Position numbers and translations under genes: made by a program | The notes under the pieces: generated by a model | The model's database searches: none | Seen by the model: the letters and a program-made list of their open reading frames with translations, nothing else | Told to the model about the DNA's origin: nothing | Origin: Iodobacter fluviatilis | Lineage (GTDB): Bacteria > Pseudomonadota > Gammaproteobacteria > Burkholderiales > Chitinibacteraceae | Direction: 5' to 3' | Length of the DNA stretch: 64,000 nt | Assembly: GCF_004194535.1 (NCBI RefSeq) | Contig: NZ_CP025781.1 | Location: 2,604,001-2,668,000 of the forward strand | In this document: in pieces, positions 1,447 to 64,000 of the stretch | How positions within the stretch are numbered: position 1 is the first letter of the stretch | How the letters are laid out: every line of letters begins with the position of its first letter

Positions 1447-2469
1447 ATGTCAGACGATATCCTTTCTCAGGAAGAGGTTGACGCGCTACTGCGTGGTGTG
1501 ACCGGTGAAGACGATTCTTCCGACGACGAGGTCGATGCTTCTGCTGTTCGCGATTATGACATTGGTCGCCAAGAGCGCATTGTTCGTGGGCGGATGCCTA
1601 CGCTTGAAATTTTAAATGAGCGCTTTGCACGTAATTTGCGCGTGGCCTTATTTAACTTTATGCGCCGCAATGCTGAAATTTCCGTTGGCCCCGTTCGGGT
1701 GCAAAAATATAGCGAATTTATTCGTAATCTGGTGGTCCCTACCAATTTAAATTTGATTCAAATGAAGCCGCTGCGCGGAACAGGATTATTTATTTTTGAT
1801 CCTGATTTTGTGTTTTTGGTGGTGGATAATTTATTTGGCTCGGACGGTCGTTATCATGTGCGGGTTGAAGGGCGTGATTTTACAGCCACCGAGCAGCGGA
1901 TTATTCAGCGTCTCTTGGATGTGGTTTTTGAAGAGTACGAAAAAGCGTGGGTTCCGGTTTTTCCTTGCGAATTTGTTTACATCCGTTCAGAAATGAATAC
2001 TCAGTTTGCTAATATTGCCACGCCAACTGAAGTAGTGGTGGCCTATACCTTTAAAATTGAATTGGGTGCGGGTGGTGGGGATTTTCATATCTGCTTCCCC
2101 TATTCAATGATCGAGCCTATTCGCGATGTGCTGTATAGCACGATGCAGGCTGACCGAATTGAAGTGGATAATCGTTGGACCACTTTAATGCAAAAGCAAA
2201 TTCAGCATGCTGAGGTTGATTTGGTGGCCACTTTGGGCAATGCCAAGGTCACTTTAGGAGAGATTTTAGAGCTGCAGCTGGGGGATATTATTTCTTTAGA
2301 AATCCCTGAGGCCATTATTGCTGCGGTAGATAATGTGCCCGTATTGGAGTGCAAATACGGCACTTTAAATGGGCAGTATGCTTTAAGGGTAAGTAAAGTA
2401 TTGGGTTCCGCTGAAGCTTTAACGGGGAGCGAAACAGAAAGCCAATTAAATGACGAGGAGCAGAAATAA
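1447..2469 (+). CDS. fliM: Flagellar motor switch protein FliM
   Basis: A 340-residue C-ring protein that binds phosphorylated CheY and sets the direction of rotation. The N-terminus has the conserved CheY-binding peptide (ILSQEEVDALLRG at residues 5-17). A CheC-like middle domain follows, with the RNLRVALFNFMRR and EFIRNLVVPTNLN stretches, then a C-terminal SpoA domain (about 250-325) that pairs with FliN. The length is normal for the family. An AAGGA site precedes the start. The fliN gene begins about 100 bases downstream. Confidence 0.97.
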   Translation: MSDDILSQEEVDALLRGVTGEDDSSDDEVDASAVRDYDIGRQERIVRGRMPTLEILNERFARNLRVALFNFMRRNAEISVGPVRVQKYSEFIRNLVVPTNLNLIQMKPLRGTGLFIFDPDFVFLVVDNLFGSDGRYHVRVEGRDFTATEQRIIQRLLDVVFEEYEKAWVPVFPCEFVYIRSEMNTQFANIATPTEVVVAYTFKIELGAGGGDFHICFPYSMIEPIRDVLYSTMQADRIEVDNRWTTLMQKQIQHAEVDLVATLGNAKVTLGEILELQLGDIISLEIPEAIIAAVDNVPVLECKYGTLNGQYALRVSKVLGSAEALTGSETESQLNDEEQK

Positions 2470-6319: not shown

Positions 6320-6435
6320 TTGTTTCACGAGGTTTGGGATTTGTTTTTGCCACACTTTTCGGCGTATTTTAGTTGCAGGGTGTGTCAAAGTGCGTAAGTC
6401 TGGTATTTTGACAGCAGCACTTTTTTGCAGCGTAG

Positions 6436-6470
6436 TAAGCCTGTGAACATGATTACACAGGCTTATTTTC
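6436..6470 (+). terminator. Terminator after folE2
   Basis: TAAGCCTGTG (6436-6445) pairs with CACAGGCTTA (6456-6465) around a 10-base loop and is followed by TTTTC. It isolates folE2 from the cold-shock gene. Confidence 0.65.
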
Positions 6471-6583
6471 GTGTACCAGTTGACACTTAGATTTTGGCTT
6501 GGGTCTTTTTTTGTCTACGTCTAAGTAAACAATAAATGACGCTGCATAAACAAAGCTATCTAATAATCATCAGGGAATACAAA

Positions 6584-6796
6584 ATGTCTAGCAAAATGAC
6601 CGGTACTGTAAAATTCTTTAATACGGAAAAGGGATTTGGTTTTATCTCTCCTGTAGATGGCAGTAAAGATGTGTTTGTACATTTCTCTGCCATTCAGTCT
6701 ACGAGCTTTAAAACCTTGGATGAAGGGCAGCGTGTTGAGTTTACTATTGAGCAGGGGCAGAAAGGCCCCTCAGCTGCAAACGTAGTTGGTTTGTAA
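6584..6796 (+). CDS. Cold-shock domain protein (CspA family)
   Basis: A 70-residue single cold-shock domain: [20 protein letters not shown] with RNP1 (KGFGFI) and RNP2 (VFVHF). Such proteins bind single-stranded RNA or DNA and melt mRNA structure. The frame is open from 6536, but ATG at 6584 gives the canonical N-terminus, with CAGGGA about 8 bases upstream. More than 100 bases of untranslated sequence separate it from the previous terminator, which would allow a regulatory leader as in cspA mRNAs. Paralogue identity (cspA, cspD or other) cannot be fixed. Confidence 0.93.
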
Positions 6797-6837
6797 TAGC
6801 CCCAAAGCGGATGCCTAGTTTTAGATAGATTGAGATT

Positions 6838-6863
6838 AAAGCCCCGGCAACGGGGCTTTTTTC
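6838..6863 (+). terminator. Terminator after the cold-shock gene
   Basis: AAGCCCCG pairs with CGGGGCTT around a short loop and is followed by a T run. It ends 18 bases before the start of the next small gene. Confidence 0.8.
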
Positions 6864-37773: not shown

Positions 37774-37921
37774 CGTGCATTCCTGCAAAAAGGATTGAGG
37801 TGAAAATTCGGGGCAATTATAGCAGACCTTCTCCCTCAGCAAGCCAAGCCGGTCTTTGCTGTGCTCGGTATCTGCGGCTTTTCTGGGGTAAAATCACAAT
37901 ATTCCAAGGATAGTGTCCACC

Positions 37922-38557
37922 ATGCTGAAATTACCTTCAATCGATCAGTTTATTTCTGAATTTGATACCGTGCTTAGAACCCTAGCCGCGTCTGCACAGA
38001 GCGAGCGCCCTCATCCTGATGCCAGCGTTGCCGAGTTGGAAATGAGCGCTGCAGATAAGCAACATGCTGCGGGTTTGATGCGGGTTAATCATTGTGGCGA
38101 GGTGTGCGCTCAAGCACTTTATCAAGGCCAAGCCCTCACCGCGCGTAATCCTGCTACCCGTGATGCACTGCGTGAAGCGGCACACGAAGAAGTTGAGCAT
38201 CTGGCTTGGACTGAGGCAAGGATTGCTGATTTAGGTAGCCATAAAAGCTTGCTCAACCCACTGTGGTACGCCGGCTCGTTGGCGATTGGGATTGCAGCGG
38301 GGGTGATCGGGGACAAGTGGAATCTGGGCTTTTTGGCTGAAACTGAGCGCCAAGTTGCAGAACACTTGCAATCGCATCTGAGCCAGCTACCAGAACAAGA
38401 CGCAAAAAGCCGCGCGATTGTGGCGCAAATGCATATTGATGAAACGCATCATGCCGAAAAAGCCGAAGAGCTAGGTGCGGCAGCGCTGCCATTTCCGATA
38501 GCAAAAGCGATGCAACTCAGCTCAATTGTGATGACTTCACTTTCTTATCGTGTCTAA
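37922..38557 (+). CDS. coq7: 2-polyprenyl-3-methyl-6-methoxy-1,4-benzoquinone monooxygenase Coq7
   Basis: A di-iron carboxylate hydroxylase of about 211 residues acting late in ubiquinone synthesis. Iron ligands are visible in NHCGEVCAQALYQGQ, HEEVEHLAW and HIDETHHAEKA. ATG at 37922 has AAGGA about 11 bases upstream; GTG at 37913 would be too close to it. Many betaproteobacteria use Coq7 in place of the flavin enzyme UbiF, as here. It works with UbiE, UbiJ and UbiB coded at 22-25 kb. Confidence 0.95.
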   Translation: MLKLPSIDQFISEFDTVLRTLAASAQSERPHPDASVAELEMSAADKQHAAGLMRVNHCGEVCAQALYQGQALTARNPATRDALREAAHEEVEHLAWTEARIADLGSHKSLLNPLWYAGSLAIGIAAGVIGDKWNLGFLAETERQVAEHLQSHLSQLPEQDAKSRAIVAQMHIDETHHAEKAEELGAAALPFPIAKAMQLSSIVMTSLSYRV

Positions 38558-39535: not shown

Positions 39536-39564
39536 AAAAAAACGCGCCAATGGCGCGTTTTTTT
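39536..39564. terminator. Bidirectional terminator
   Basis: An 8-bp-class GC stem (ACGCGCCA with TGGCGCGT) is flanked by A and T runs on both sides. It serves both the channel gene and the converging osmC-like gene. Confidence 0.88.
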
Positions 39565-39982
39565 ATGCAGCTTCAAGTATTTCAAAATCGTGTGTAATCA
39601 GCACACTTTTTGCTAGCATAATCGAGGCCGAGCAATATTTTTCAGCAGAAAGCTTGATGGCTCTTTCCACTTGTTCTGGCTTTAAACCTTTGCCAGTAAC
39701 GGTGTAATGTAAATGAATTTTAGTAAACACTTTAGGCTCGGTTTCTGCGCGCTCTGCATCAACGTCTACTACGCAGTCCCTAACATCGGCACGGCTCTTC
39801 TTTAAGATATGGATCACATCGTAGGTCGAGCATCCTGCCGTGCCCATCAGCACCATTTCCATCGGTCTTGGGCCTAAATTGCGGCCCCCACCCGCTGGAG
39901 GGCCATCCATTAGTACCGAATGACCCGATTCAGACTGTGCTAAAAAGCTCACTTCTTCTACCCATTTCACGCGTACTTTCAT
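39563..39982 (-). CDS. OsmC-like protein (YhfA type)
   Basis: A 139-residue OsmC/Ohr-superfamily protein. The two redox cysteines are in GTAGCSTYDVIHIL and EKYCSASIMLA. The domain order fits the YhfA subgroup more than Ohr peroxidases. Such proteins reduce organic hydroperoxides with thiol cofactors, but YhfA itself is not well characterised. The start is near an AGGGAGAAG site. Divergent from the candidate sRNA and rplM. Confidence 0.88.
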   Translation of the reverse strand: MKVRVKWVEEVSFLAQSESGHSVLMDGPPAGGGRNLGPRPMEMVLMGTAGCSTYDVIHILKKSRADVRDCVVDVDAERAETEPKVFTKIHLHYTVTGKGLKPEQVERAIKLSAEKYCSASIMLAKSVLITHDFEILEAA

Positions 39983-40079: not shown

Positions 40080-40108
40080 TTGTCATGCTTTCTGTCTCAC
40101 GCGATAAT
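40080..40108 (+). promoter_or_regulatory. Promoter of the candidate small RNA
   Basis: TTGTCA (40080-40085), a 17-base spacer and GATAAT (40103-40108): a near-consensus sigma-70 promoter. A start near 40115 is expected. The only downstream gene within reach is rplM, which has its own promoter beyond the terminator at 40176. Confidence 0.65.
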
Positions 40109-40114
40109 GCGCCT

Positions 40115-40204
40115 AACATCAGAGTGTTTTTTACTTTGTTGTTGTCTCCTCCATCCTCCATTTTGGTGGGATTTCACGCAATCCAATTGGGTTGCGTTTT
40201 TTTT
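40115..40204 (+). ncRNA. Candidate small regulatory RNA with anti-SD motif
   Basis: About 90 nt between its own promoter and a Rho-independent terminator, with no open frame. The RNA has a U-rich 5' half, then CUCCUCCAUCCUCCA (40145-40159), complementary to Shine-Dalgarno sequences. The second CCUCC can pair with UGGUGGGAU just downstream, leaving the first exposed in a model by eye. Similar C/U-rich loops occur in Hfq-dependent anti-SD sRNAs. An alternative is a terminated leader of rplM, but rplM has a better promoter downstream. The 5' end is inferred. Confidence 0.5.
40176..40204 (+). terminator. Rho-independent terminator upstream of rplM
   Basis: ACGCAATCC and GGGTTGCGT form a stem of 8-9 pairs with an AATT loop, followed by eight T (40197-40204). 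The T tract on the plus strand means it ends a plus-strand transcript that starts upstream, in an interval with no annotated plus-strand gene. Confidence 0.85.
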
Positions 40205-40253
40205 AGACGTGGTCAATTTTGGAACATATTTTCAAAATGGCACGTCACCAGAT

Positions 40254-40283
40254 TTGACAAGTGAATGCGGATTCAGATAAAAT
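40254..40283 (+). promoter_or_regulatory. rplM-rpsI promoter
   Basis: A perfect -35 TTGACA (40254-40259), an 18-base spacer and TAAAAT (40278-40283). It lies about 40 bases before the rplM start and is the expected strong ribosomal protein promoter. Confidence 0.8.
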
Positions 40284-40321: not shown

Positions 40322-40750
40322 ATGAAAACCTTTTCTGCCAAGCCGCACGAAGTTAAGCGCGAGTGGTTCGTTGTTGATGCTACCGATATGGTTCTCGGTC
40401 GTCTCGCGGCTGAAGTCGCTAAACGCCTGCGTGGCAAGCACAAAGCCGAGTACACCCCTCACGTAGACTGTGGTGACCACATCGTGGTGGTGAACGCAGA
40501 CAAGATCCGCGTAACCGGCAACAAAGCAACAGATAAAATTTACTACCGCCATACTGGTCACCCAGGTGGTATTTACCAGCGCACCTTTTCCGAGATGCAA
40601 GAAAAATTCCCGGGTCGCGTGCTAGAAATGGCTGTTAAGGGCATGCTTCCAAAGGGTCCTCTCGGCTACGCTATGATCAAAAAGATGAAGGTTTATGCAG
40701 GTAGCGAACATCCGCATACCGCGCAACAGCCTAAAGCCTTTTCTATCTAA
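40322..40750 (+). CDS. rplM: 50S ribosomal protein L13
   Basis: A 142-residue early-assembly protein of the large subunit that binds 23S rRNA. Typical blocks are [50 protein letters not shown] and [26 protein letters not shown] site precedes the start. Codon use is biased towards preferred codons compared with neighbours, as expected for a highly expressed gene. Followed by rpsI after 34 bases in the universal pair. Confidence 0.98.
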
Positions 40751-40784: not shown

Positions 40785-41177
40785 ATGGTAGGTAAATACT
40801 ATTACGGTACCGGCCGTCGCAAGAGCGCAGTTGCTCGTGTGTTCGTAGCCAAGGGTAGCGGCAATATCATAGTCAACGGCAAGCCGGTTGATTCTTACTT
40901 TCCTCGCGAAACTAGTCGCATGGTCGTTCGCCAGCCTCTAGAATTGACCGCAAACCTCGAATCCTTCGACATTATGGTTAATGTTGTTGGTGGTGGTGAA
41001 ACCGGCCAAGCCGGTGCGATCCGTCACGGTGTAACTCGTGCTCTGATTGAATTTGATGCAGCTCTTAAAGGCAGCCTCAAAGCAGCAGGTCTTGTTACTC
41101 GCGATGCTCGTGAAGTTGAACGTAAGAAAGTGGGTCTGCACGGCGCTCGTCGTCGCAAACAGTTCTCCAAGCGTTAA
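40785..41177 (+). CDS. rpsI: 30S ribosomal protein S9
   Basis: A 130-residue small-subunit protein whose C-terminal tail reaches the P-site tRNA. Visible are [16 protein letters not shown] at the N-terminus, [19 protein letters not shown] in the middle and the universal basic tail ending [14 protein letters not shown] precedes the start. It ends the two-gene operon; a strong hairpin follows. Confidence 0.98.
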
Positions 41178-55139: not shown

Positions 55140-60009
<4,870 letters not shown>

Positions 60010-60140
60010 TATAACCTGAAGCGCGTGTGTGCGACGGTATAATCTACCCAGATTAGAGTTAAATTTGAGTATTGAATTACTTCTTCTATTGAACTGAACG
60101 CGTTGCAGAGCAATAAGTGCAACGAGTTAACCCGTTAAAG

Positions 60141-60253
60141 TCTGGTGACCATAGCGAGGTGGCCCCACTCCTTCCCATCCCGAACAGGACAGTGAAACAC
60201 CTTAGCGCCGATGATAGTGCAGATTACCTGTGTGAAAGTAGGTCATTGCCAGA
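60141..60253 (+). rRNA. rrf: 5S ribosomal RNA
   Basis: About 113 nt starting TCTGGTGACCATAGCGAGG with the conserved CCCATCCCGAACAGG loop; the terminal TCTGG pairs with CCAGA at 60249-60253. It ends the rRNA operon. Confidence 0.95.
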
Positions 60254-60270
60254 CACCCTAAGCCGTAAAC

Positions 60271-63202: not shown

Positions 63203-63639
63203 TTATTCCTGATTTGCTAGCTCAAATTGCTTGGCAAATACTGCTGGCTCTTCATCGTTCAAACGTGAATGACGGCGAATTCGGTTGTAAAAAATTTCAA
63301 TATATTCGGTGATTTCCTCCTGCGCTTCCACTCGTGTTTTGTAGCTACGGTGATGAACCAATTCATTCTTCAATGAGCCCACTTTCCATTGGCGCATTGT
63401 CATAGCAGTTCCCTTTGCGTGACATAGACCCCCGCAAGCCCGCCAATGCCACTTGCCTGGCTCCCTCGATCCGAATGTAAAATCAATCCTTCCTTAGGTC
63501 GCTTTTGCGCCAAGGCCAGCTTCAATGAGGCACTCACCAACTCTTTTGTCATTCGACTACCCATCGCATAACCGACGATTTCACAAGTAAACACATCCTT
63601 GATTCCAGCCAAATAAAGCCAGCCTTCTGTGGTCGGAAG
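63203..63639 (-). pseudogene. IS3-family transposase remnant
   Basis: Pieces of the C-terminal half of an IS3-type OrfB (rve core) lie in different frames. PTTEGWLYLAGIKDVFTCEIVGYAM and GLILHSDRGSQ (63637 down to about 63460) form one frame. MSRKGNCYDNAPMES, in another frame, follows a deletion. LKNELVHHRSYKTRVEAQEEI to YNRIRRHSRLN (to 63203) is in a third. The N-terminal half would lie beyond the intron end at 63640. It is clearly inactive. Confidence 0.85.
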
Positions 63640-64000
63640 TGGAGTAAGAGACGGGGCGTAGTCGTACTATTTCCCCGTCTCTCCTCTCCGAACCGGACTT
63701 GCACCTTTCAATGCATCCGGCTCTTCATCTAAGTGCTGCTCATCGCAAAGGCAACCTCACCATACCTCGACTCCATGGTGCTGATCGGCTCGTCGTGCAA
63801 TATGAATGGATTTTCAGTCAAGGTTCGCCATTTGAACCGACTCTTCCGGCTTGTAATCAGCCGCCGGAGTGTGAGGGCTCCATACTAGCCATGAGTGTTT
63901 TGCCCTCCAATCAACCAAGTTTTAGCGACACCGTTTGCTGGCGATTTAACATAATCTCGCATGAGCGATCTAAAGCCGCGTCGGTATTTACGCGCCAGCC
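63640..64000 (-). mobile_element. Group II intron, 3' end (domains V and VI), cut by window edge
   Basis: On the minus strand 63723-63690 forms a standard 34-nt domain V: GAGCCGGAT, a GAAA tetraloop and the closing AAGTCCGGTTC. Domain VI follows (GAGACGGGG with CCCCGTCTC) and the intron ends near CTTACTCCAC at about 63640. Past this boundary the IS3 transposase coding sequence begins, so that gene seems to be the target. Domains I-IV and most or all of the maturase lie outside the window. A short frame at 64000-63880 (ending LIGGQNTHG) is not assigned. Confidence 0.8.

Follow-up and report, generated by a model that had tools for sequence, protein, structure and literature searches.

Does the intergenic DNA between an osmC-like gene and rplM of Iodobacter fluviatilis encode a free-standing anti-Shine-Dalgarno (anti-SD) small RNA, and to which family, if any, does it belong? 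A first-pass annotation of the window, that is, the whole 64,000-nt stretch of DNA analysed, had described here a promoter, a terminator with an eight-T tract, and, past this terminator, a separate promoter of rplM, and all three signals were found again (Table 1). The region 40115–40204 was confirmed as a real, unannotated anti-SD sRNA gene. The reading that it gives a stand-alone RNA of ~90 nt, orthologous to the rplM-linked members of the Rfam family RF02278 and repressing SD-bearing mRNAs in trans, is assigned a probability of about 0.82.

Table 1. Features of the sRNA locus, its neighbours, and other RNA elements in the window
Feature	Position	Strand	Details
coq7, member of the conserved neighbourhood	37913..38557	+	Pfam PF03232
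OsmC-like protein gene, divergent upstream neighbour	39563..39982	-	Pfam PF02566
sRNA promoter	40080..40108	+	TTGTCA 40080-40085, N17, GATAAT 40103-40108; 10/12 consensus match by scan
5′ hairpin SL1	40114..40144	+	UAACAUCAGAGUG ... ACUUUGUUGUUG; compensatory changes in other genera
Predicted full-length sRNA, ~90 nt	40115..40204	+	putative 5′ end, 6-8 nt past the -10 box
Anti-SD stretch, two CUCC sites	40146..40160	+	CUCCUCCAUCCUCCA (CTCCTCCATCCTCCA); from the sequence
Weak hairpin SL2	40150..40172	+	3′ strand TGGTGGGAT (UGGUGGGAU) 40164-40172 pairs with either CUCC copy; from the fold
Intrinsic terminator	40176..40204	+	9-bp stem ACGCAATCC/GGGTTGCGT 40176-40197, loop AATT, T8 40197-40204
rplM promoter, separate	40254..40283	+	TTGACA 40254-40259, N18, TAAAAT 40278-40283; 11/12 consensus match
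rplM, ribosomal protein L13, downstream neighbour	40322..40750	+	Pfam PF00572
rpsI, next after rplM	40785-41177	+	Pfam PF00380
cspA thermoregulator 5′ UTR	6419-6863		125 bits
Complete rRNA operon	55140-60254		
Group II intron RNA match	63639-63725	-	58.8 bits

The anatomy by itself argued little for a gene, since the counts of promoter-like sites (5 vs. 3.3) and terminator-like sites (3 vs. 2.7) in the region were judged no higher than in shuffles. Shuffled CU-rich RNAs also matched ribosome-binding sites equally well, and both results would fit a chance combination of a promoter, a CU-rich stretch, and a terminator that serves an upstream transcript. However, the upstream gene osmC is divergent, and the predicted RNA fold had a z-score of -5.5, with 0/200 shuffles as good. 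Conservation in related genomes, a check proposed by the first-pass annotation, was clear. Among nine species of the genus, the sRNA was invariant at 87/91 positions (96%), and its promoter at 6/6 positions of the -35 and 5/6 of the -10 box, vs. 21/78 (27%) of the flanking intergenic positions upstream and 22/48 (46%) of those from the terminator to the rplM promoter, so that genus-level conservation was confined to promoter, RNA, and terminator. An alignment of 27 sequences, drawn from genera throughout the family, showed changes on both sides in 8 of the 12 SL1 pairs with 97% of the cells paired, while sliding the pairings of the whole structure as a control lowered the paired cells to 37–45%. 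The terminator helix showed compensatory change in 8/8 pairs among copies from other orders (alignment of model R2, see below), and the anti-SD stretch was nearly invariant across Chitinibacteraceae and these orders. Further, a covariance model built from Chitinibacteraceae copies (R1) matched 41/43 family genomes. The fold z-score, the genus-level invariance, the SL1 covariation, and the family-wide model matches thus outweigh a chance anatomy, which is extremely improbable and refuted unless the alignments are wrong.

Two open frames, of 87 and 59 amino acids, do span the element, but small ORFs across it were ruled out as coding, because in congeners the SL2 loop carries indels of 1 nt and 4 nt that break the frame. 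The suggestion that one CUCC copy is sequestered held in that the 3′ strand of SL2 pairs with CUCC, but either the first or the second copy can be the partner. The two pairings differ by only ~1 kcal/mol, indicating that sequestration is dynamic and the sites open and close; folding predicted both to be partly accessible. A counterpart hairpin of SL2 is present in the R2 alignment of copies from other orders, and RNAalifold gives SL2 a pairing other than that of R2, the data fitting both.

The gene order at the locus is coq7, a formate/nitrite transporter gene, osmC (divergent), the sRNA, rplM, rpsI, and argC. From coq7 to argC this order is kept in the family, with the transporter often absent, and osmC keeps the same place in family loci and in many loci of the order. 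The arrangement osmC–sRNA–rplM was also found in loci of Burkholderia, Paraburkholderia, Cupriavidus, Pandoraea, Herbaspirillum, Noviherbaspirillum, Thauera, Azonexus, Dechloromonas, and Tepidiphilus. The first three of these genera have osmC between two non-coding RNA genes, the sRNA and the RNase P RNA; the latter gene lies just beyond osmC in the loci L113 (1525-1936), L103 (1856-2268), and L083 (1932-2275).

Such a constant site, mostly 90–480 nt ahead of rplM and in the same orientation in several orders, could also mark a cis-acting rplM leader or attenuator, whose transcription would begin at 40115 and mostly end at 40204, with regulated read-through into rplM-rpsI. A leader of this kind would be co-transcribed with rplM and always adjoin it. 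Instead, the rplM promoter, TTGACA followed by a TAnnnT-like -10 box, was kept past the terminator in 23/23 family loci checked, and the two family genomes without the sRNA (G011 and G012) retain the rplM promoter and leader directly after osmC. Copies also occur far from rplM: some genomes carry 4–9 of them, in some loci the sRNA stands beside coq7 and osmC with rplM not within reach, and the NmsR RNAs of Neisseria lie elsewhere. In addition, the relatives act in trans (PMC5688073, PMC11722255, PMC5362039). The conserved rplM promoter, the copies away from rplM, and the rplM genes without the element indicate that the sRNA is an independent gene and no rplM leader, and a cis-acting role is quite improbable. 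The free-standing anti-SD sRNA, as the first-pass annotation had proposed, is by far the best reading.

The annotation had been unable to tie the RNA to a known family. The Rfam search that it had recommended returned a full-length match to RF02278 ('Betaproteobacteria toxic small RNA') at 40143..40205 (+), with 43.6 bits and E 8.1e-8 over model positions 1-64 of 64, below the gathering cut-off of 50 bits, and the RNA belongs with this family. RF02278 reportedly goes back to Kimelman 2012. The copy, the only RF02278 match in the Iodobacter genome, has the family layout of a 5′ CUCCUCC, a CU-rich hairpin, a GC-rich terminator, and a U tract; some members carry GUCUCC in the motif. RF02278 matched 37/43 family genomes, eight of them above the cut-off, and the same-slot orthologues L002, L003, L005, L006, L007, L009, and L010, from sister genera, reached it. 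Accepted members share the genomic slot, with osmC–sRNA–rplM in L113, L103, L083, L134, and others above the cut-off. By the letter of Rfam, the Iodobacter copy is not an accepted member; judged by homology and position, that is, by model score and synteny, it is the orthologue of accepted, rplM-linked ones.

A class-wide genome sample was then searched with RF02278, sub-threshold matches included, which gave 54 sub-threshold matches in 49 genomes of other orders. Thirty-six of the 54 (35 genomes) lay on the rplM strand, 94–690 nt upstream of the gene, a placement with a chance of ~1e-4 per match. The core of these copies, GACUCCUCCAUCCUCCUUUGGUGG with a GC-rich terminator, varied little and was usually preceded by a TTGACA promoter and a 5′ hairpin; none of those checked reached the RF02278 cut-off or matched another Rfam family. 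Model R2, built solely from 24 other-order copies, found the Iodobacter copy at 48.7 bits (E 1e-9; short calibration makes the E-values of both R1 and R2 approximate), and also detected the betaproteobacterial copies and, at 30–34 bits, the Neisseria NmsR loci. It matched 70/183 sampled genomes of other orders. Among the genomes found by R2 and missed by RF02278 in which rplM was matched, 13/19 had a copy ≤500 nt upstream of rplM, bringing the other-order genomes with a relative just upstream of rplM to 48. Their hosts appear to be classical Gammaproteobacteria, a term that follows the taxonomy used, in which the order of Iodobacter includes the Neisseria and Burkholderia relatives. A shallow phylum-wide sample contained no relative outside the class, and plasmid and viral collections gave no match.

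The rplM-linked copies in other orders and the reach of R2 to NmsR suggest that the 'betaproteobacterial' RF02278 is a single anti-SD RNA of greater age, linked to rplM. From its distribution, the gene would have stood upstream of rplM since before the split of the betaproteobacterial and other gammaproteobacterial orders. Common ancestry of NcS27, S17, NmsR, and the uncurated rplM-linked copies of other orders is well supported. The broader proposal, that all of them go back to a single anti-SD sRNA and that its lasting position before rplM-rpsI reflects a functional link, is unlikely as a whole; if the link were true, the RNA would act as a global translation-initiation brake tied to the supply of L13 and S9, e.g., by read-through or shared growth control. 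No earlier report of a wider rplM-linked family was found in the literature outside subscription papers, and the S17 and NgncR papers name neither each other's RNA nor any gammaproteobacterial relative. What appears new here is the age and spread of the family, both apparently greater than the catalogue implies, and its constant position before rplM. As the R2 matches in other orders suggest, the RF02278 cut-off may hide a large older family, which would join three separately studied regulators (NcS27, S17, and NmsR) and provide new model organisms for anti-SD control of metabolism. The unannotated sRNA, in turn, can be assigned to a named family and a fixed genomic position, and its 5′ hairpin is open to testing.

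Sibling copies were observed in L217 (two matches 131 nt apart), L257 (1129-1336), and the genomes of family f7 (up to 9), suggesting that tandem or multi-copy anti-SD sRNAs formed repeatedly in some lineages. In the Iodobacter genome, a second, weak R1 match of 36.2 bits lies at G000:C1:1047891-1047980 (L206 about 1992-2081, minus strand), where UUUCAUCUCUCUCCUCUGUAUGUAUUU is followed by a strong terminator before an rsuA-like gene. This site is kept in two congeners (G028 and G032), R2 gave no match to it, and it is a possible candidate for a CU-rich sibling sRNA.

The stand-alone sigma-70 gene would yield a ~90-nt RNA with three hairpins: SL1 at the 5′ end, the weak SL2, in which the two CUCC sites lie, and the terminator. 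The 5′ hairpin may be trimmed as in NcS27 and S17 to a form starting near 40143, in which case the RF02278 region 40143-40205 would correspond to the short processed form of these two RNAs. By analogy with NcS27, S17, and NmsR, the exposed CUCCUCC/UCCUCC is predicted to act in trans by pairing with the Shine-Dalgarno sites of a group of mRNAs for metabolism and transport, probably helped by Hfq, as work on S17 and NmsR suggests; covering of the SD would lower translation of these targets. In an RNAduplex scan that covered 1.2 Mb of its own genome (941 predicted genes), the sRNA scored no higher than shuffled CU-rich RNAs, which gave an equal peak at ribosome-binding sites, so the sequence does not single out any target. 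Exact GGAGGAGAC sites numbered 23, nearly all in rRNA operons. The 23S rRNA gene of each operon carries GTCTCCTCC twice, 264 nt apart (window about 59098 and 59362), the same nonamer as in the sRNA core, probably by coincidence.

The near invariance of ~25 nt, more than plain anti-SD pairing requires, might mean that the main partner of the same sRNA is one or a few mRNAs, with the anti-SD stretch merely a seed. This has a low probability, as S17 and NmsR both have many targets (PMC11722255, PMC5362039). For broad repression through the anti-SD stretch, mutations of this stretch in NmsR abolish the repression of most targets (PMC5362039). S17 of Bordetella pertussis is Hfq-dependent, trimmed by RNase E, and directly represses a sigma-54 activator (PMC11722255), and NcS27 also has a short processed form (PMC5688073). 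Growth inhibition on overexpression has been reported for other RF02278 members, e.g., NcS27, the overexpression of which slows growth while an antisense to it speeds growth (PMC5688073). S17 is not clearly toxic in E. coli, indicating that behaviour varies among members (PMC11722255).

Compared with RF02278 (the double-hairpin RNAs NcS03, NcS05, NcS27, and NcS62 of Burkholderia cenocepacia; PMC5688073), the Iodobacter sRNA has the same UGUCUCCUCC start, CU-rich hairpin, and terminator, but its hairpin carries AUCCUCCA instead of ACCCUCCUCC, it is single, and its conserved extra 5′ hairpin lies outside the Rfam model. It shares the rplM-linked slot with Burkholderia aenigmatica L113 (RF02278 74.6 bits), probably the slot of NcS27 judging from the position by BCAL3348a/3349. 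CU-rich sRNAs of alphaproteobacteria resemble it in their exposed CCUCCUCC-type loops. S17 is similar in its CU-rich Sites 1 and 2 at ribosome-binding sites, its terminator, and the coq7 neighbourhood, while S17L is 190 nt long and S17 adjoins coq7, not rplM (PMC11722255). NmsRA/NmsRB of Neisseria (NgncR_162/163; RF02877 = NmsRb) form a tandem pair elsewhere in the genome and have the sequence UCUCCUCUAUUUCUCC; upstream of rplM, the Neisseria sp. slot holds 6S RNA (L076 3083-3260, L082 3103-3283). The Iodobacter genome has a single RF02278 copy and no such tandem sibling, the weak R1 match elsewhere being unconfirmed. The hint at Neisseria in the first-pass annotation was borne out by R2 and by a weak full-length match of the NmsR model RF02877 to the Iodobacter copy (27.9 bits, E 0.013; gathering cut-off 52, not reached). 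Like NmsR, the Iodobacter sRNA has three stem-loops and two anti-SD stretches, one single-stranded between SL1 and SL2 and the other within SL2 (PMC5362039, PMC9973317).
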